Shown here: positions 3,773-50,054 of the stretch, in pieces
Numbering within the stretch: the stretch's first letter is position 1
Layout: every line of letters begins with the position of its first letter
Assembly (NCBI GenBank): GCA_025057155.1
Contig: JANWYD010000005.1
Location: forward strand, 124,001 to 188,000
DNA length: 64,000 nt
Direction: 5' to 3'
DNA from: Chloroflexaceae bacterium
GTDB taxonomy: Bacteria; Chloroflexota; Chloroflexia; Chloroflexales; Chloroflexaceae
The notes under the pieces: generated by a model
Told to the model about the DNA's origin: nothing
The model's input: only the letters and a program-made list of their open reading frames with translations
Database searches by the model: none
Position numbers and translations under genes: made by a program

Positions 3773-4312
3773 CTATGAGACGCCACCGTATTGCGCCAGC
3801 CAGGCCAGGGCCAGCGAGAGGCCGATCACCGTCTTGGCGTCGCTGAAGGCCCCTTCGAGCAGCGCCTGCTGCAAGCCCTCCAGGGGTCGCTCTTCGGGAT
3901 GCAGGTGTTCGTCCCAGTCGGCCGTGCCGTCAGTAGGTGTCAGGTCGAGGCCCAGGAAGATGTGGGTGCGTTCGTTGGTGTAGCCCGGTGATGTGTAGTA
4001 GCTCCCCAGCGGGATGAGCCGCCCGGCGCGATAGCCCAGTTCTTCGGCCAGCTCGCGGGCCGCCGCTTCCTCCGGAGCTTCGCCCGGATGTAACAGGCCC
4101 GCTGGCAGTTCCAGCATCTCCCGGCCCGCGGCGATGCGGTACTGCCGCACCAGCAGCACCTTCCCCGTGTGGATTGGCACGACCGCCACTCCGCCAATAT
4201 GCTCCACCACGTCCCGCCGGGCCGTCTGCCCATTGGCGATCCGCGCCGTGCCGGTGATCACCGTGAAGAAGCGGCCTCGAAACACCTCGTGTCGTTCGAC
4301 CCATTCTTCCAT
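3773..4312 (-). CDS. Nudix hydrolase, ADP-ribose pyrophosphatase type
   Basis: A 179-residue cytoplasmic hydrolase that probably splits ADP-ribose or a related nucleoside diphosphate derivative. It has a complete Nudix box, G-x5-E-x7-RELAEELGY, beginning at PAGLLHPGE around residue 91. The upstream motif VVEHIGGVAVVPI and the downstream PLGSYYTSPGYTNERTHIFL are typical of the ADP-ribose pyrophosphatase group, and the latter often contributes to the dimer. It converges with hypF, only 45 bases from the hypF stop. A purine-rich AAGAGGG precedes the ATG by about ten bases. Substrate choice within the Nudix family cannot be settled from sequence. Confidence 0.9.
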   Translation of the reverse strand: MEEWVERHEVFRGRFFTVITGTARIANGQTARRDVVEHIGGVAVVPIHTGKVLLVRQYRIAAGREMLELPAGLLHPGEAPEEAAARELAEELGYRAGRLIPLGSYYTSPGYTNERTHIFLGLDLTPTDGTADWDEHLHPEERPLEGLQQALLEGAFSDAKTVIGLSLALAWLAQYGGVS

Positions 4313-4547
4313 GCTATTGATCCCTCTTGAGACAGGGCTTCGCTGCGTGGCCTTGTACGGAACCGTTTGGAAGGGAAGCGCGGTTCGGAAGCGTCCGCTC
4401 CAAGCTCCCTGGAACAGGCGCGCGCTGCACGTTTACGTTGTCGCCAGCAGGCACGCGCAGGCGGTCGCGATGTCCGCCTCCGGCAGGTTGTCTCAGCATA
4501 GCGTCAGCAGGACCTCGCCCGCGACTGGCGGCTACAAAACGTAGCAA

Positions 4548-6740
4548 CTAGCTTTCCAGGCCCACCCCACGCACCACCAGCGCGCCGGCCGCCAGCGGGC
4601 GCAGGTGCAGCCGGGTCATACCGCTCTCGATGTCCAGAATGAACCGCTGGCGCGACCTGCCATCAGGCAATGATAGCGGCACGCGGTTCGCGCCGTTCAC
4701 GCGCACCTCGAGCTGGCCTGCGACGGGGCTTGTCAGGTCCAGTTCCAGCGTCACCCTGCGCGGGCGAGCGCTGTAGATCAGCACCTCGGCTTCGTCGCTG
4801 ATGTACCGCTCCACCCCGGCAGGCGTTACCCGCGGGGGCGACCAGCCCCCGCCGAGGCCCAGAAAGGGCAGCGGATCATCCGGCGGGACCACGCGGTAGG
4901 CCAGCACCGAGCCGGTGACCGGCGGCTCAAACGGCCCCATGGCCCGCAGCAGGCCCGAGGCGCTGCGCGTATCGGAGTAGGCCAGCATCGAAGGTTCGCG
5001 CCGGGGTTTGGCGCCGCCGGCTGCCGCTGCCGCGATGGTCTGGAGGTCGCCGTAACGCAGGGCGCCGCCGGCGCTGTGGAGCATCAGGTAACGGATGTTG
5101 AAGTAACTGAAGACGCTGGCGGCGATCCGCGCCGGCTCCTGGGTGATGATGTCCGGCGCGGGTTCCGCATAGGCAAACATGCGTACAGTAGGGATCTGTT
5201 CGACGAGGGGATAGGGTAGTCTGCGTGAGGTGTAGCCGCCCGCCAGATACTTGCCGTGCACAACCTGGAAGAGCATGTACACCGGGCTGGTGTTGTAGTA
5301 AAACGGCGACTCCAGGATCGCATAGCGTTCGGGGTCACGCCCCAGGGCCGCATACAGCGACGGGACGTAGACGCGCACGATGGGGAAGGGCGTGGTCAGG
5401 TTCTCGAAGGCGATCAGCGCGACCAGGCCGGCCAGGGCCAGATTGGCCGCGCGGGTGGGGTGTGCCGCGCGCCCCTCCAGGGCCGCGAGGAGGCGCTGCG
5501 CGCCTAGCGCCGCCAGGATGGCCAGCGCGAGCGTCGCATACACCGCAAAGCGGATGGGGTAGCGCGAAATCTTCACCAGCGGCAGTTCGTAGATCAGCGC
5601 TCCGGGCAGGGGCAGGCCAGTCCGCCACCCCAGGATCTGTAGCTGCGGTCCCAGGGCCAGTAGAGCGAACAGCAGCCCGCCGAGCAGCCAGAAGCGCCCG
5701 GCCCGTCCGCGCACGCCCAGGGCCGCCAGCGCCAGCGCCACGAATCCCAGATACACCGTCTTGTTCTGAATATGGGTCTCGGCCTTGTAGGTCTGCAGGC
5801 GCTCGGCCAGTGGACCGAGGAGCGGATGGATCTGGCTGGGAATGAAGAAGTCAGCCAGGTCCGCCGAATGCTCCAGCCGGAAGGTCGGGCCGCCCTCGCT
5901 TTCGGCGCCGGGCGTCTGGCTGGCGAAGCGCGCCGTGGGAATGGCAAACGGCGCCACCAGCAGCAGCGCCACCCCGATGGCTGCCATGACGGCCAGCGCC
6001 CCCGACGCGCGCAGGCGCGGGAGCGGGCCGCCGCGCGCGCCCGCCGGCTGGTGGGACAGCAACCGCGCGACGGCGTACCAGGCCGCCCAGATCAGCGTGA
6101 ACAGCAGGTACTGCCAGTCGCAGAGCGCGGTCAGGGCGATCAGCGCCCCCGCCAGGGTGATGCGCCCCCGGCCCGGCGCGTTAGCGGCGCGGTGCAGGGC
6201 CAGCGCCGCCAGCGGCAGCGGCCAGGCCGCCAGCATGTGCGTATGGCTGCCCAGCACCTGGGCCAGCAGGTAGCCGCTACAGGCAAAGATCACCCCTGCG
6301 ATCAGCGCGGCGCGGTGGCTGGTCGCCCGGAAAGAGCCGTTCTCGGCCAGGACGCCGCGCGCCAGCAGATAGGCCGCGTACCCGCTCATCGTCAGCGAGA
6401 AGAGCACCACGAAGTTGTAGGCGGCCACCAGTCCGAAGAGCGCGTGGATCGGCAAGCTGATAAGAAAATTGATCGGATTGAGCGTCTGCAACCACAGCCC
6501 TGCGCCATGCGGGTAGTAGAGGTAGGGGGTGAAGAAGGGGTTGCTGCCGGTAAGCAGCGCCTCCCGCAGCCACCATATGTTCCACATGTTCTGCCAGGTG
6601 TCGAAGCCGTTTCCCGGCACGGCGGTCGTCATTTGCAGCGCCATGGGCCAGGTCATCAGCAGGGCCAGGCCCAGGTAGAGCGCCAGGGCCATTCCCTGCT
6701 TCGCCATCTCTTCGCGCCAACGGACGGTTTGAGGGGTCAT
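4548..6740 (-). CDS. Polytopic GT-C-like membrane protein
   Basis: A 730-residue protein with about ten to twelve membrane segments in the first two thirds and a soluble beta-rich C-terminus. The layout (hydrophobic N-terminus, a first-loop acidic segment GNGFDTWQNMWN, a multi-span core, an extracytoplasmic tail) resembles GT-C glycosyltransferases that use lipid-linked sugars. The family is uncharacterised. The ATG at 6740 is chosen over the longer frame to 6902 because the paralogue at 52231-54420 starts at the same point (MT-x-PT/QT-x-RWR), and the extra 54 residues come from repeat-like DNA. The two paralogues share stretches of identical DNA. A more distant relative lies at 32667-34958. 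Confidence 0.85.
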   Translation of the reverse strand: MTPQTVRWREEMAKQGMALALYLGLALLMTWPMALQMTTAVPGNGFDTWQNMWNIWWLREALLTGSNPFFTPYLYYPHGAGLWLQTLNPINFLISLPIHALFGLVAAYNFVVLFSLTMSGYAAYLLARGVLAENGSFRATSHRAALIAGVIFACSGYLLAQVLGSHTHMLAAWPLPLAALALHRAANAPGRGRITLAGALIALTALCDWQYLLFTLIWAAWYAVARLLSHQPAGARGGPLPRLRASGALAVMAAIGVALLLVAPFAIPTARFASQTPGAESEGGPTFRLEHSADLADFFIPSQIHPLLGPLAERLQTYKAETHIQNKTVYLGFVALALAALGVRGRAGRFWLLGGLLFALLALGPQLQILGWRTGLPLPGALIYELPLVKISRYPIRFAVYATLALAILAALGAQRLLAALEGRAAHPTRAANLALAGLVALIAFENLTTPFPIVRVYVPSLYAALGRDPERYAILESPFYYNTSPVYMLFQVVHGKYLAGGYTSRRLPYPLVEQIPTVRMFAYAEPAPDIITQEPARIAASVFSYFNIRYLMLHSAGGALRYGDLQTIAAAAAGGAKPRREPSMLAYSDTRSASGLLRAMGPFEPPVTGSVLAYRVVPPDDPLPFLGLGGGWSPPRVTPAGVERYISDEAEVLIYSARPRRVTLELDLTSPVAGQLEVRVNGANRVPLSLPDGRSRQRFILDIESGMTRLHLRPLAAGALVVRGVGLES

Positions 6741-41161: not shown

Positions 41162-44100
41162 GTGCTAACAAGTAAAACGTTCACCTTCCTTCTCGGCAAA
41201 CGCGCCGCGCGGGTGCAACGCGCGGCGCTAGAGGCGTTTTTGGGGCGCGAGCCGGGCCTGCAGGCGCTGCCGGGGTTGCTCGACGCGCCTCTGGGGCTTG
41301 AACCGCTTCCTGACCCGGCGGCAATTCTTGCCGCACCGTCGCATCTGGCCATCTGCGGCCCGCCGGCATCAGGGCGCACGCTGGCGTTGCTTCAGGTCGC
41401 CGCGCGCTGGTGCGCGACGGGATCGGGCGCGCCAGTGGTCTATCTGTCGCTGTCTGACGAGGATGCGCCCAATCTGCCGCCGCGGGCGATCCTTGCCGGC
41501 GCGTTCGAGCGCGCCGGGCTGCCCCCGGCGTTCGGCGCGCGTCCGGGGATTCTGCTGCTGGACGACTGGGAAACGCTGCCGACCGATCGCCGGCTTGCCT
41601 GGCGCGCGTTTCTGACCGCTACGGGGCGGGAGTGGCGCGCCCTGCGGCTGGTCGTCGTCCTGCCGGAGAGTGAGGAATGGACGGGTTTCCGCACCCTGGA
41701 TGTGCCCGGCGATGTGGAGACGCAGGCGGCCTGGCTTCGTCACCTGCTGCCGGCGGAGGCGCCAGAACGCCTGCTCGCCGCGTTGCGCGCCGGAAGCGGC
41801 GGCGCGGCTATCCGTCTTGCCGATGTGGCCCTGCTGGCCCTGACCTTGCCGGATCACGGGCTGCCGGCCTCGCGCGCGGAGCTGTACGCGCGGGCCTACG
41901 AGGCGCTTCGCCCGGCAGTGGAGCGCGGCGATCCCGACGATCCCGTCCCGCTCCCGGCGGTGGGCCGGGCGCTGCTCCGGCATTACCGAATGGCGCGGGC
42001 TTTTGCTGGCAGCGCCGAGATTGGCGGGCTGGCGAGCCTGCCGCCGATTGAGCGCATCGCTGTGGCGCCGCTGGCGGCCGGGTTGCTGGGCACGCCGGCG
42101 CCGGTGCTGGCGGCCCTGTGGTCCACCAATGCCCCGTCGGGGGCAAGCCTGGATGCCGGTGTCGCCTGTCTCCTCGCCATGCCCGATCAGGCGCCTGAAT
42201 GGGGCCTGCGGCTGGTCGAGCATCTGGCTCGACCGGAGGCAAGCGCCGAGGAACGGGCGGCCTTGCGGTCGCTGGCTCCCGTCCTGCCGCGTATCTTTGC
42301 CGCTTCGCCCGAGGTCGAGCGGGCCAGCGCGGCCCTGCGCGCCGCCGATGCCGCGCTGCCGCCTGTGGCGGGGCGCTGGCTGCCGCTGGTGGATGACGCT
42401 GACGCGCCTGCCGCCCTGCGCTGGGCCGCCGCGGATCTGCTGGCGCGCCACGGGCTGGAACGGGAATTGGCGACCGCGGTTCCCGAGGCGCCCGACTCGC
42501 CGGCGCTACAGATGCGGGCCTTTCTAGCGGCCACCGCTGTAGAAGGGGGCGTGGCGCTGCTGGCGACGCCGCCGCTGCGAGCGGGGGCTGTGGCCCTGCT
42601 CGGCGACGCCTCGATAGGCGAGCCCCGTCTGGCCGTCGCGCAGGCCATCCTTGCCGATGCCTCCTCGCCCGACGATCTACGCGCCCTGGCCCTGATCGGC
42701 GACCGCGCCGCGCTCGAGCAGGCGCTGTGTTCGCCCGTGACCGTGTTGCGCCGGGCGGCGCTGGCCATCCTCCGCGAGGAGGATCCGGCGGTCGCGGCGC
42801 CGCTGCTGGCGCGAGCGCTCAAACATCCCGAGGCTACGGTGGCGACCTGCGGCGAGGCCCTCGACACTCTGGCAGCGCTCGAGCATCCCGGCGCAACGGC
42901 GCTGCTCATCCGCGCGCTCCTTGACGAGCAACTCGGTCTGGTGACACGGCTGCGGGCGCTGAGATTGCTCGCGTCTAGAGGGCGAGCCGGAATCCAGGTG
43001 CTTCGCCGGGCGCTGGAGGCCGGCCGGCTGCCGCTGGCGGTGCGGGCCGCTGCCGCCGCGCACCTGGGGCGTCTGGAGGATGACGGAGCGTTGCCGCTGC
43101 TGCGCAACCTGCTCGAAAGCGACGCTCCGCCCATGCTGCGCCACAGCGCGGCGGAGGCGATCGGCGCTCTGGGGCGGCGCGCCGAACTGGCCGATCAGGC
43201 GGCTGCCGCGTTGATCACCGGCCTGCGCCGGGCAGGGGTGAACGCGGCCCTGATGGTCGCCATCGCACGCGGGTTGGGGCGCAGTGGCGCCAACGCCGCG
43301 CTGCCGCCGTTGCGTTCGCTGCTGGGGCTGGCACTGGCCGATGTGCTGCGCGCGGCCTGGGAGCGGCGCGTCCCTGAGCTGGCCAGCCTGCCCGCGCGCG
43401 CCTGGCTCGCTCTGGCCCTGTCCGCCGAAACGCGGGTGGCGCTCATAGACGCTCTGGCGCAAGGGGAGACCCTCGCCGACCAGCCTTCCAGCCTGGCCGA
43501 GTGCTGCGCCCGGCAGGCCGAACGGATCGCCGAGGCGGCGGCGCTGGCGCTTGGCGACCTGGCCCGCGCGCGCCCGGATCTCCAACCCGCGGTGCGCATC
43601 ACCCTGCGCCGAACGGCCGCCGCCGATACTCGACCTGCCGTGATACGCGCCGCCCTTGACAGCCTGGCTTCCTGTAGCGACCCGGCGGAGGAGCTGGAGG
43701 CGCTGCTTGATGACGCGGCGGTCTCGTTACCGTCTCAATGGCTGGCGTTGGAGCGTCTGGGCCGGCTGGCGCCCGCGCGCGAGGCGCTCACCCGCCGGTT
43801 GAATGGTGGCGATCCCTTCCTGCGGGCGGCGATGGTGACGCTCCTGGCCGCGCAGGGTCACGAGGCCGCCCTGCCGGCCATGCGCCGCCTGGCGCGTGAC
43901 CCCGCGGGCGACCCGCACCTGCGGCGCGCTGCCATCGCCGCCCTGGGACGCTTTCCTCCTGCCGAGGTGAGCGCGACCCTGGTTACGCTCGCCGCCGATG
44001 AGAGTGTTCCTGCCGACCTTCGCGCGCTGGCGGCGGCTACGTTGCCGGCCACCCTCTCGACCGACGAACGGGCGGCCCTGTACCGCGCGCTGCGCGTCGC

Positions 44101-45178: not shown

Positions 45179-45279
45179 GAGAGAACCGGAGGCCTCGCTC
45201 CGGCGAGGGGAGGCCGAGAGGGAAGCAGAACCCTGCGAGCGGCGACGTGTCTGCAAAATCAGCGTCCAGGGAGGGCATC

Positions 45280-46095
45280 GTGGCAACTCGCATTCTGGTG
45301 ATTGACGATGAACCGGTGATCTGCCGGTTGATCGAATACCAGCTTGGCAGCGCGGGCTACCGAGTCATGGCGTGCCAGCGCGCGCACGACGCGCTGCTGT
45401 TGATTGCCAACGAGGCCCCGGACCTGATCCTGCTCGATGTTATGATGCCGGGGATCAGCGGCTGGGATCTGTGCCGCCAGATCCGCGCCAGTTCGACGGT
45501 GCCGATCATCATGCTGACGGCGAAACACGGCGATGAGGACATCGTCACCGGACTGACGAGCGGCGCCGACGACTATGTAGGCAAACCGTTCAGCGCCGCT
45601 GCGCTGATCGCGCGCATCGAGGCGGTGCTGCGGCGCAGCCGGAGCGCCAACGGTCAGCGCCGGCCAACGCCGGCCCCCATAGAGCCAGCAGCGGCGCCCG
45701 CGGCGGAAACTCCTGCGCCAGGGGTCGCTTCCTCTCTCGCTGACCGTCCGCGGGCGCGTGAAACCGAGCCTGTAGAAAACCGGCTGCCGCGCCTCGGCCC
45801 GCTGCTCGCCGAAGCGCGGCGCCAGCGGCGCCTCAGCCTGCACGATGCCGGTGAGGTCTGCGGCGTGCGTTGGGAGTTCCTCCAGGCCATTGAGCGAGAG
45901 CAATTCAGCTACGTGCCGCGCGACGAACTGCGTCACGCCCTGCGGACCTACAGCGCCATGCTCGATGTTGATCTCAGCCCCTACCTGGGGCATGGCGGGC
46001 AACGGCGCCGTCGGATTCCGGGGGCGCTGCCGTTGACTGTCGGGGTGGTGGCGGTGCTGGCGATGGCGCTGGTGGTGGTGATTCTGATTCTGTGA
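45280..46095 (+). CDS. Response regulator with RodZ-like HTH and C-terminal membrane anchor
   Basis: A 271-residue protein. Residues 1-120 form a receiver domain with the acidic pair D9/D10, phospho-acceptor D53 (LILLDVMMPG), conserved Thr in IIMLTAKHGD and Lys in VGKPF. A Pro/Ala-rich linker of about 55 residues follows. Residues about 180-245 form a helix-turn-helix of the RodZ/HTH_25 type (LGPLLAEARRQRRLSLHDAGEVCGVR, then the ALRTYSAML helix). The last ~20 residues are a membrane segment. The start is GTG 45280 with GGGAGG upstream. The combination differs from OmpR/NarL regulators and suggests a membrane-tethered, phosphorylation-controlled DNA-binding or cytoskeletal protein. A kinase is not adjacent; the nearest is at 48027. 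Confidence 0.86.
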   Translation: MATRILVIDDEPVICRLIEYQLGSAGYRVMACQRAHDALLLIANEAPDLILLDVMMPGISGWDLCRQIRASSTVPIIMLTAKHGDEDIVTGLTSGADDYVGKPFSAAALIARIEAVLRRSRSANGQRRPTPAPIEPAAAPAAETPAPGVASSLADRPRARETEPVENRLPRLGPLLAEARRQRRLSLHDAGEVCGVRWEFLQAIEREQFSYVPRDELRHALRTYSAMLDVDLSPYLGHGGQRRRRIPGALPLTVGVVAVLAMALVVVILIL

Positions 46096-46104
46096 AACGA
46101 AAGG

Positions 46105-46177
46105 GAGCCGGCCCGCCGGACCGGCTCTACGCGTGCTATGGGTGGGGAGCCGGCCCGGCGGGCCGGCTTTACTTTTC
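46105..46177. terminator. Bidirectional double-hairpin terminator
   Basis: Two related stems, GAGCCGG-cccgccgga-CCGGCTC (46105-46127) and AGCCGGCCC-ggc-GGGCCGGCT (46148-46168), the second followed by TTACTTTT. They separate the convergent genes ending at 46095 and 46169; the second overlaps the region before the minus-strand stop. Confidence 0.75.
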
Positions 46178-47218
46178 ATTACGGGCGTGCATCCAATCCA
46201 GGATGGCAGGCCACACCTCCTGATGGGCGCGGCGCCCAACCAGCATGCCCAGGTGTTGCAGCACCACCCCCACATCGCCCTCGTACCACAGCACACGGGT
46301 GTCGCGGCTTCCCACGGCGGAGTGAAATGGCAAGACCGATTCGGGCGGGATGATCGCCGAATGCCGTTCGATGACGCTAATGAGCGGCACGGTAATCGCC
46401 GCCGGCGCTGCCAGGCGCCCGCCGACGCTGAGCGTCCCCTCGATGAAACGGTTTTCACGGTACAGCAACTCCACCATCTCCTCGAAGAGCCGCCGGGGCA
46501 GGGGTTGCTCATCGAGGGTCCAGCGCATGACCCGCAGGTGGGTGTTCAGGGCCTGGGGGTCGGCAAGGCTGTACCACCAGTCCGTCAGGCGTTCGCCCTC
46601 GAAGGTGGCGGGCGCGGCCAGGATGCTTACGGTGTTCAGAAATGTACCTGGCACATTCGCAGGCAGCAGGGCGGTAAGGGTCTCGGTGCGCGGGGCGCGG
46701 GCCACCACCGGGCCAAAGGCGCCCGTGCCGGGGCCAAAGCATAGCGGTGCGCTGAGCAGCACCAGACCCTTGAGCCGTTCAGGGTAGAGGGCCGCGTAGA
46801 TCGCCGCCAGCACGCCGCCGAGGGAGTGACCGGCCACAAAGGTCGCCGGTTCGCCGGTCTCGGCGGCGATGGCTTCCTGACAGGCCAGCAGGTACTCCGC
46901 GGCATATTCTGCCAGCCCCAGATGGTAATCCTCTGTGTCAGGGCGTTCCCAGCGGATCAGGTAGGGGCGAATGCCGCGCCGGAGACAGTGTCGGATGACA
47001 CTGACCGAGGGCGCGAGGTCCCACAGGTAGGCGCGTTTGATCGGTGCGGGGACGATCAGCAAAACCGGCCCCGAGGCGTCGGCTTCAGCATAGGCGTTGA
47101 GGGTCAGGAGTCGCGTTGAAAACACCGCCCGCGACGGCGTTTCAATAGGCGCAAGCCCCGCCATATCGAACCAGTGCCCGCGCGCGCGCCGCAGGCGATC
47201 AAGCTGATCGTAGATCAT
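46169..47218 (-). CDS. PhaC-like alpha/beta hydrolase with a serine nucleophile
   Basis: A 349-residue alpha/beta-fold protein closely patterned on class III polyhydroxyalkanoate synthases (LLIVPAPIKRAYLWDLAPSVSVIRHCLRRGIRPYLIRWERP is the hallmark PhaC N-terminal segment). The lipase-box nucleophile is Ser132 in GHSLGG, where PHA synthases have Cys. The late catalytic His is in QHLGMLVGRRA. Ser would favour hydrolysis rather than polymerisation, so it may be an esterase of this subfamily. The ATG at 47218 follows AAGGGG by ten bases, and an earlier in-frame codon has no such site. No phaE or phasin gene is adjacent. Confidence 0.78.
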   Translation of the reverse strand: MIYDQLDRLRRARGHWFDMAGLAPIETPSRAVFSTRLLTLNAYAEADASGPVLLIVPAPIKRAYLWDLAPSVSVIRHCLRRGIRPYLIRWERPDTEDYHLGLAEYAAEYLLACQEAIAAETGEPATFVAGHSLGGVLAAIYAALYPERLKGLVLLSAPLCFGPGTGAFGPVVARAPRTETLTALLPANVPGTFLNTVSILAAPATFEGERLTDWWYSLADPQALNTHLRVMRWTLDEQPLPRRLFEEMVELLYRENRFIEGTLSVGGRLAAPAAITVPLISVIERHSAIIPPESVLPFHSAVGSRDTRVLWYEGDVGVVLQHLGMLVGRRAHQEVWPAILDWMHARNEK

Positions 47219-47355
47219 CGCGGTGCACCCCTTCAGGTTGCGCCAGGCGCCTGCATGAAGGCGAAAGGTACAGCTTTTCTGCAAGCGCGCCGGGGAGTCT
47301 ACTCTCCATCCCGATCCTGCTCTGGCCTTCCGGGAAGCCTCTGCGAGCCAACCTC

Positions 47356-48026: not shown

Positions 48027-50054
48027 ATGGACGCTCCTCGCCCGAACTTCACGTTATCACACGTGCCAGTCCTGGTGAGCTACGTGGTGGCCGTGGTCAC
48101 CGGCGTGGCAGCGGCGCTGCTCACGAACCTGCTCGCGCCTCCTGTCGAGCAGCGCGGTTTTGTGTTATTTCTTCTTGCGGTTACGATAAGCGCCTGGTAC
48201 GGCGGGTTCGGGCCGGGATTGCTGGCCACGATATTCACGGCGCTGGTGGGCGTCTATGAGTTGCAGGCCTCCCCGCCGTCATCCGGGGTGAAGAGTTCCT
48301 ACGTGCTGCATCTGGGGTTCTTTCTCGGCGCGGCCCTGGTCGTCAGCGCACTCAGCGAGTCCCGCCGGCGCTCGGAGGGTTTTGCCCAGGCTGAGCGCGA
48401 GCGTTACGCGGTCATCCTCAGCAGTATTGGCGAGGCCGTTATCGTTACCGATGCCGCTGAGCGGGTGACCGTGATGAACCCTGTTGCCGAGCAACTTACC
48501 GGCTGGCGCTTCGACAAGGCGCGCATGCGTCCTCTGAGCGACGTGTTGCGTGTCGTCGAGGAGACCACACGGGCGCCGCCGGAACGTCTGGTCGAGCGGA
48601 CCTTGCGCGAGGGCCAGGCGGTTGCGCTGGCGTCGGGCACGTTGCTGCTGACTCGCGATGGGGCCGAACGCCCCATCGAGGGCAGCGCCGCGCCGGTACG
48701 CTCCCGGAGCGGCGCGCTGATCGGCGCGGTGCTGGTCTTTCGCGACGTCAGCGCGCGACGCGCCGAGGAACGCGCTCGCGAGGAGACCCTGCGCCGCGAG
48801 CGCGAAGCCCGCGACCAGGCGCAGCGGGCCGAACGGCGCGCGGCCTTTCTCGCCCAGGCCAGCGCCATCCTGTCCTCATCCCTGGCCTCTGAGGAGACGC
48901 TCCAGGCGATTGCCCGCCTCGCTATTGCCGAAGTCGCTGATATGTGCGTCGTGTTCGCCCAGGAACCCGATGGCATGCTCCGCCGCGTGGTCACTGTGCA
49001 CGTTGACCCTGATCTGGAGCAGCAGTTACGTGCCCTCCAGTCGCTGACGATTGATCCGCGGAGCGATCATCCCGCCGCGATTGCCGTTCGTACCGGCCAG
49101 GCGCTGCTCAATCCGCCCATCCCGGACGCGCTCGTCGCTGCCGCCGCTGCTGATGCCGAACACCTGGCGCGTCTCCGCGCCACCCTTCCCCGTTCCCATA
49201 TTGTCGTGCCGCTGGTTGCCCGCGGCGTGGCGACCGGCGCGATTTTGCTGGGAATGAGCGCCTCAGGGCGGGTCTTTACCGAAGCCGATATCGGCCTTGT
49301 GCGTGAACTGGCCGGCCGGGCCGCCGTCGCGCTGGATAATGCCCGCCTGTATGAGGAAGCGCAACGGGCCATCCAGGTGCGCGACAACTTCCTTTCTCTC
49401 GCGGTTCACGAATTGCGTGCGCCGCTTGCCGCCGCTCTCGGCAACGTGCAGTTGCTCATACGGCGCGCCGAGCGAGCCAATCTGTCGGACGAACGCTTCG
49501 GTCGCAATCTGCGCCTGATCGAGGAGCAACTACGTCGTCTGGCTAACCTGGTCAGTATGCTGCTCGATGTCTCGCGTCTGGAGGCGGGCCAGTTGAGCAT
49601 TCAGCGCGCCCCGCTGGATCTGGCGGCCCTGGTGCGTCGGGTGCTTGAGCGCGCCGAAGCCTCGCTTGTCACCCATGTGCTGCGCTATGACGGGCCTGTC
49701 GGCCCCCTTCACATCGAGGGCGACGCCGTGCGCCTTGAACAGGTGCTCGACAATCTGCTGCAGAATGCAGCCAAGTATAGCCCGCCCGGCAGCGCCATTA
49801 CCGTGCTGGCGGGCCAGCAGCACGAACGGGTCTGGTTCGCCGTGCGCGACGAAGGCGTGGGGATCGATCCAGCGGTGTTGCCCTACCTGTTCGAGCGCTC
49901 ATACCGCGCTCCTGATCCCTCCACCCGCGCTATGCCAGGCATGGGTATCGGTCTCTACGTCGTGCGCGAGATCGTCGCCAGACACGGCGGAACAGTAGAG
50001 GTGGAGAGTGAGCCGGGCAAGGGTACCACCTTCACGGTCTGGTTGCCGCGATGA
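48027..50054 (+). CDS. Hybrid-input sensor histidine kinase (DUF4118-PAS-GAF-HisKA-HATPase)
   Basis: A 675-residue membrane kinase. Residues 1-115 hold three to four membrane segments in a KdpD-like DUF4118 layout (ISAWYGGFGPGLLATIF). A PAS domain (about 125-240), a short coiled coil, and a GAF domain (about 270-440) follow. The phospho-acceptor is His461 in AVHELRAPLA, and the ATPase domain has the N-box (LEQVLDNLLQNAAKYS), DEGVGI and GMGIGLYVV glycine motifs. It autophosphorylates on His and passes phosphate to a response regulator; no such gene is adjacent, although the orphan regulator at 45280 lies 2 kb away. The signal sensed is unknown. Confidence 0.93.
   Translation: MDAPRPNFTLSHVPVLVSYVVAVVTGVAAALLTNLLAPPVEQRGFVLFLLAVTISAWYGGFGPGLLATIFTALVGVYELQASPPSSGVKSSYVLHLGFFLGAALVVSALSESRRRSEGFAQAERERYAVILSSIGEAVIVTDAAERVTVMNPVAEQLTGWRFDKARMRPLSDVLRVVEETTRAPPERLVERTLREGQAVALASGTLLLTRDGAERPIEGSAAPVRSRSGALIGAVLVFRDVSARRAEERAREETLRREREARDQAQRAERRAAFLAQASAILSSSLASEETLQAIARLAIAEVADMCVVFAQEPDGMLRRVVTVHVDPDLEQQLRALQSLTIDPRSDHPAAIAVRTGQALLNPPIPDALVAAAAADAEHLARLRATLPRSHIVVPLVARGVATGAILLGMSASGRVFTEADIGLVRELAGRAAVALDNARLYEEAQRAIQVRDNFLSLAVHELRAPLAAALGNVQLLIRRAERANLSDERFGRNLRLIEEQLRRLANLVSMLLDVSRLEAGQLSIQRAPLDLAALVRRVLERAEASLVTHVLRYDGPVGPLHIEGDAVRLEQVLDNLLQNAAKYSPPGSAITVLAGQQHERVWFAVRDEGVGIDPAVLPYLFERSYRAPDPSTRAMPGMGIGLYVVREIVARHGGTVEVESEPGKGTTFTVWLPR

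Follow-up and report, generated by a model that had tools for sequence, protein, structure and literature searches.

What does a response regulator do when its receiver is followed by an HTH domain of the RodZ type and a predicted membrane anchor? The question is raised by a gene in the 64,000-nucleotide stretch of Chloroflexaceae DNA analyzed here (hereafter, the window). As a rule, response regulators are soluble proteins that, in most cases, target DNA or have an enzymatic output. The product of this gene, denoted type A together with its orthologs, shows the domain order receiver, linker, HTH_25 and transmembrane (TM) helix (Table 1), and its only conserved neighbor encodes a protein with a predicted NACHT module and HEAT repeats.

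Domain architecture of the type A protein

Pfam searches identified Response_reg at aa 5-114 of the type A protein (E=6e-30) and HTH_25 (PF13413) at aa 175-232 (E=2.3e-8, above the cut-off). The winged-helix domain Trans_reg_C was not detected by Pfam in this protein, HTH_25 being the only match after the receiver, and the PF00486 proteins of the genome are located elsewhere than the type A gene. The start codon is at the same point in the orthologs. An earlier note on this DNA, made from the sequence alone, described the receiver as complete, which was borne out by the comparison of 33 orthologs: D10, D53, T80 and K102 are the same in all of them, whereas residue 9 is D in 29 and E in 4 of these proteins. 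By profile, fold and tree, the type A receiver groups with those of the OmpR/PhoB family (PhoB, YycF/VicR, MtrA), with which it shares sequence, fold and the full phosphorylation site, the likeness extending to the GADDY..KPF...L.ARI.A.LRR region. However, the winged helix of this family is replaced in type A with the linker, HTH_25 and the C-terminal membrane anchor.

Table 1. Coordinates of the type A gene, of the upstream partner gene and of their parts in the window
Feature	Position	Strand	Basis or remark
Type A gene, 271 aa, GTG start	45280..46095	+	receiver, linker, RodZ-type HTH, C-terminal membrane anchor
Shine-Dalgarno-like AGGGAGGG	45268..45275	+	just 5' of the type A GTG; read from the sequence
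Receiver, OmpR/PhoB type (D9, D10, D53, T80, K102)	45292..45621	+	Pfam; YycF/VicR/MtrA matches; receiver (REC) tree
Pro/Ala-rich disordered linker	45640..45780	+	low pLDDT; dN/dS 0.28-0.72, weak constraint
HTH_25 (RodZ-type), signature GVRWEFLQAIE...VP..ELR..LR.YS	45793..45975	+	Pfam; profile matches; model
Single C-terminal TM helix	46027..46089	+	AlphaFold2 and hydropathy; RRRR directly before (positive inside)
Partner gene, NACHT-like N-terminal part, HEAT-repeat remainder, 1247 aa	41111..44854	+	Pfam HEAT_2; NLR fold model
NLR-like NACHT module of partner	41183..42400	+	AlphaFold2 model
Lysine-less P-loop GPPASGRT (Arg for Lys) of partner	41357..41380	+	sequence

In the AlphaFold2 model of the type A protein, built from the 33 orthologs, the receiver has pLDDT mostly above 90, the linker (approximately aa 127-168) is disordered, a four-helix HTH spans aa 172-228 (pLDDT 93-98), and a C-terminal helix covers aa 250-270. 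When the full model was used for fold searches, the matches were taken up by receivers, so that the assignment of the HTH fold derives from sequence matches to RodZ structures and from the helices of the model. The closest relatives of the HTH by sequence are RodZ-type proteins (3fym, 4gqm, 2wus), in agreement with the type named in the earlier note; among the weaker profile matches are SinR and ClgR, which are transcription regulators. The mean Kyte-Doolittle hydropathy of the last 19 residues is 3.15, whereas none of 200 shuffled versions of the same protein exceeded 2.75, and the most hydrophobic stretch is the C-terminal end in all 33 orthologs, with 0-7 residues beyond it. Type A is thus predicted, from the model and hydropathy, to be tail-anchored by a single membrane span. 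The complete receiver, the RodZ-type HTH and the predicted anchor of the original description are thus supported, as is the idea that two-component signaling reaches a membrane-bound HTH protein.

RodZ itself (PF13413, TM helix and PF13464) likewise carries an HTH of this type ahead of its one membrane span, and has basic residues beside the membrane, but lacks the receiver. Conversely, type A lacks RodZ_C, the protein stopping directly after the TM helix, and differs in helix 4: the RodZ motif RGF(I/L)RxYA is absent in all 33 orthologs, and the conserved Pro is separated from the helix-4 Tyr by 11 residues in each of them, as compared with 12 in nearly all RodZ and type B (see below) sequences checked (the spacing is 11 in L095/L146). 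The host genome encodes a separate canonical RodZ (HTH_25 and RodZ_C, L001/L105; PF13464 is present in L001), which adjoins a rimO-like gene, whereas the neighbor of type A is the NACHT-HEAT gene. With a canonical RodZ present elsewhere in the genome, type A was ruled out as a RodZ ortholog.

The conserved NACHT-HEAT neighbor

The HEAT gene lies directly upstream of type A, on the same strand, in 32 of the 32 named loci with sufficient contig (34 loci minus L053 and L057, where the contig is cut), and in the first set of loci (L006-L035), HEAT homologs occupied the neighboring position in 30 of 30. The carriers of the pair include a cultured species, Herpetosiphon aurantiacus (L073). The gap between the two genes has a median of 9 nt, and in 13 of 31 cases, the genes overlap, the overlap being ATGA in L044, L048, L049 and L051, and GTGA in L071-L074; in the window, 425 nt separate them. 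Overlaps of this kind, seen in many lineages, are typical of translational coupling, and the adjacency could reflect shared regulation alone.

Among 61 genomes, the HEAT gene was found in 49, and type A in 39 of these 49 (one of the 39 is frameshifted), compared with none of the 12 genomes without the HEAT gene (Fisher 4e-7, a value that carries no phylogenetic correction). In the frameshifted case (L123, G011:C354, 1829-2665, minus strand), the type A gene is split over several frames, representing either a pseudogene or a sequencing error. Eight genomes, five of genus g9 and three of g4, encode the HEAT protein without type A, and the scaffold is therefore able to function in the absence of type A; in two further HEAT genomes (G001 and G026), the contig ends. 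In the HEAT-only loci that were read (L118-L121, L124), unrelated genes are located downstream. By eye, the gene after HEAT in L118 of g9 (4106-5029, minus strand) resembles an R2-like ferritin-fold protein, and that in L120 of g4 (4150-5388, minus strand), which follows a short antitoxin-like frame, resembles a DNA methyltransferase.

No other conserved neighbors of type A were found across the orthologous loci. In the window, a DUF4118-PAS-GAF-HisKA histidine kinase is encoded at 48027-50054, and the earlier note had pointed to it as a possible kinase for type A. An ORF with a histidine-kinase H-box near type A was detected in the window and in none of the orthologous loci, so that this kinase was discarded as a conserved partner. 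An alpha/beta hydrolase with weak PhaC_N similarity (46169-47284, minus strand) adjoins type A only in close relatives, and was accordingly excluded from the unit.

The N-terminal part of the partner is predicted to adopt an NLR-like fold, resembling that of the NLR scaffolds of animal immunity. Its AlphaFold2 model (pLDDT 87.7, pTM 0.84) matched NLRC4 with Z 16.5 (355 residues, 5.4 A), NOD2 with 16.1 and NLRP3 with 15.1, the first non-NLR structure following at Z 11.4, and NACHT (PF05729) matched the orthologous partner L062 with E=2.3e-6. Across most of the order, the P-loop has the form GxxxxGR[ST], rather than the Walker A form with Lys, GxxxxGK[ST], in nearly all copies of the partner that possess the NACHT domain (no clear motif was found in L069/L070). 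In the Roseiflexus branch (L058-L060, L067), the whole NACHT domain is missing. Judging from these sequences, the partner probably has an unusual NTPase activity or none and, because the P-loop Lys is lacking and NACHT is absent in the Roseiflexus branch, the scaffold is probably not reliant on ordinary NTP hydrolysis. As in NLRs and bacterial NACHT proteins, the predicted NACHT-NLR fold is followed by a repeat solenoid, but the partner differs from these in the P-loop Arg, in that no effector domain was found, and in the broad conservation of the gene in the order. PADLOC yielded only weak, repeat-type matches for the partner, and the label of anti-phage defense was not adopted for the gene pair. 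In two loci (L063, 8261-10249; L125, 5398-7386), the N-terminal half of the partner is fused directly to the type A HTH-TM part, the receiver being removed, as a result of either a deletion or an assembly join.

Spread of type A and a second group of the same domain order

Relatives of the HTH-TM part of type A are present in 38 of the 61 genomes, and 35 of these 38 were confirmed to have an in-frame receiver. From 84,980 species scanned, 34 named type A loci were recovered, 32 of them with the complete fusion. The domain order REC-HTH_25-TM, for which a search had been suggested in the earlier note, is conserved; the scan pattern was the single peptide W[ED][FY]LQA[IL]E, which divergent relatives elsewhere may have escaped. 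All these loci belong to Chloroflexota (Chloroflexales and Herpetosiphon), except for one on a MAG contig labeled Candidatus Gracilibacteria (L041, JAAUTF010000329.1). This contig carries a Chloroflexales type A locus and is probably mis-binned. Thus, the type A architecture is conserved across Chloroflexales and Herpetosiphonaceae. In a phylum-wide profile search of 301 genomes, type A proteins scored at least 82 bits and the next group at most 61 bits; in every case read, the latter consisted of receiver-less RodZ-type proteins and of type B. A mobile or horizontal origin of type A was rejected given that the receiver tree groups by lineage and the scan recovered almost solely Chloroflexota.

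Among close orthologs of type A, dN/dS is 0.07-0.12 in the HTH and 0.12-0.21 in the receiver, compared with the higher values in the linker (Table 1). Because these ratios are low, and lowest in the HTH, the architecture cannot be attributed to chance. Within the HTH, W198, Q202, A203, E205, P213 and Y224 are invariant.

A second REC-HTH_25-TM group, type B (L002 in this genome, L098-L103 and many of L127-L145), was found in all four families of the order examined. In this genome, a type B member is located in L104 (6804-8228, minus strand). Type B shares with type A the order of receiver, linker, HTH_25 and TM helix, but differs in the RodZ-like 12-residue spacing, in a longer tail, and in the phospho-acceptor Asp, which is replaced with Glu in many members; in this genome, the Asp is retained and type B is unlinked to the HEAT gene. 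The receivers of the two types form separate clades in the tree (support 0.891 for type A and 0.996 for type B) that do not group together, and accordingly, a single fusion event giving rise to both is unsupported. Judging from this tree, the REC-HTH_25-TM architecture was probably built twice, or else is old and strongly diverged.

Possible roles of the anchored regulator

We estimate at about 45% the probability that type A is a tail-anchored response regulator that functions at the membrane, under the control of phosphorylation, as the partner of the upstream NACHT-HEAT protein. More tentatively, the two genes might constitute an undescribed system in which a phosphorelay controls the NLR-like NACHT-HEAT scaffold via the tail-anchored receiver, with the RodZ-type HTH serving for docking and recruitment of the scaffold to the membrane as the output. 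Under this scheme, D53 of type A would be phosphorylated by an unlinked histidine kinase. Receivers of the OmpR/PhoB kind dimerize on phosphorylation, and such pairing would join two HTH_25 domains on the inner side of the membrane. Acting as a protein-docking module, as it does in RodZ, the HTH would then bind the partner through its HEAT solenoid or its NACHT module, the HEAT part appearing to be the likelier docking surface, and the docked type A would recruit, cluster or release the scaffold at the membrane. The HTH, with its invariant residues, is the most constrained part of the protein, which fits a single, fixed partner surface.

In the open-access literature that we searched, no paper was found to call a response regulator membrane-bound or membrane-anchored or to use a similar phrase, and searches for RodZ with receivers or with Chloroflexota returned nothing on the type A architecture. 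If the proposed role is correct, the combination of a conserved, tail-anchored regulator with an NLR-like scaffold would connect two-component signaling with the STAND/NLR proteins of Chloroflexota, and would show receivers combined with the RodZ HTH in two distinct groups of a single order. What two-component signaling governs here might then be a scaffold at the membrane and not the shape of the cell. The interest of type A lies mainly in its NLR-like partner, and its small size and conservation make the two-gene unit amenable to direct testing.

The main rival to this role as a scaffold partner is that of a transcription factor tethered to the membrane: once phosphorylated, the receiver would dimerize the HTH, which would bind promoters from the membrane and perhaps control the upstream HEAT operon. 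CadC and ToxR bind promoters from the membrane and, as in type A, their HTH is held there by one TM helix. However, these proteins lack a receiver and combine a winged helix with a periplasmic sensor, whereas in type A, the HTH is not a winged helix, a receiver is located in front, and there is almost nothing beyond the membrane span. Promoter binding would accord with the OmpR/PhoB kind of the receiver, which normally precedes a DNA-binding domain, with HTH_25 being an Xre-type HTH that also matches SinR and ClgR, if more weakly, and with the location of the invariant W198 and Q202 in the third helix, the recognition helix of DNA-binding Xre proteins. Nevertheless, the closest relatives of this HTH are RodZ-type proteins, and the HTH of E. 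coli RodZ binds proteins, not DNA (PMC6946637). Moreover, a general regulator would not need to be strictly paired with one NACHT-HEAT gene. The net charge of the HTH (0 in the window protein, -2 to +5 in the orthologs) is weak evidence against DNA binding, with which a neutral charge is compatible. Overall, we consider a tethered transcription factor unlikely.

Still less probable is that the anchored receiver serves chiefly as a phosphoryl sink or kinase-holding module at the membrane, in which case the NACHT-HEAT protein would act upstream of type A rather than downstream. The orthologous loci lack a nearby kinase gene, and the frequent loss of the phospho-acceptor Asp in type B implies that the architecture can serve without phosphorylation, both of which fit such a module. 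In type A, however, all the residues of the phosphorylation site are kept, and the stronger constraint on the HTH than on the receiver points to output through the HTH.

Finally, a RodZ-like MreB adaptor under two-component control, involved in cell shape or filament growth as the earlier note had surmised, would explain why HTH_25 is located, as in RodZ, on what is predicted to be the cytoplasmic side of the one membrane span, in a genome that encodes two strong MreB homologs, but is very improbable considering the separate canonical RodZ, the lack of RodZ_C, the shorter helix 4 without GF in all 33 orthologs, and the constant HEAT neighbor, with nothing linking the type A gene to the MreB homologs.
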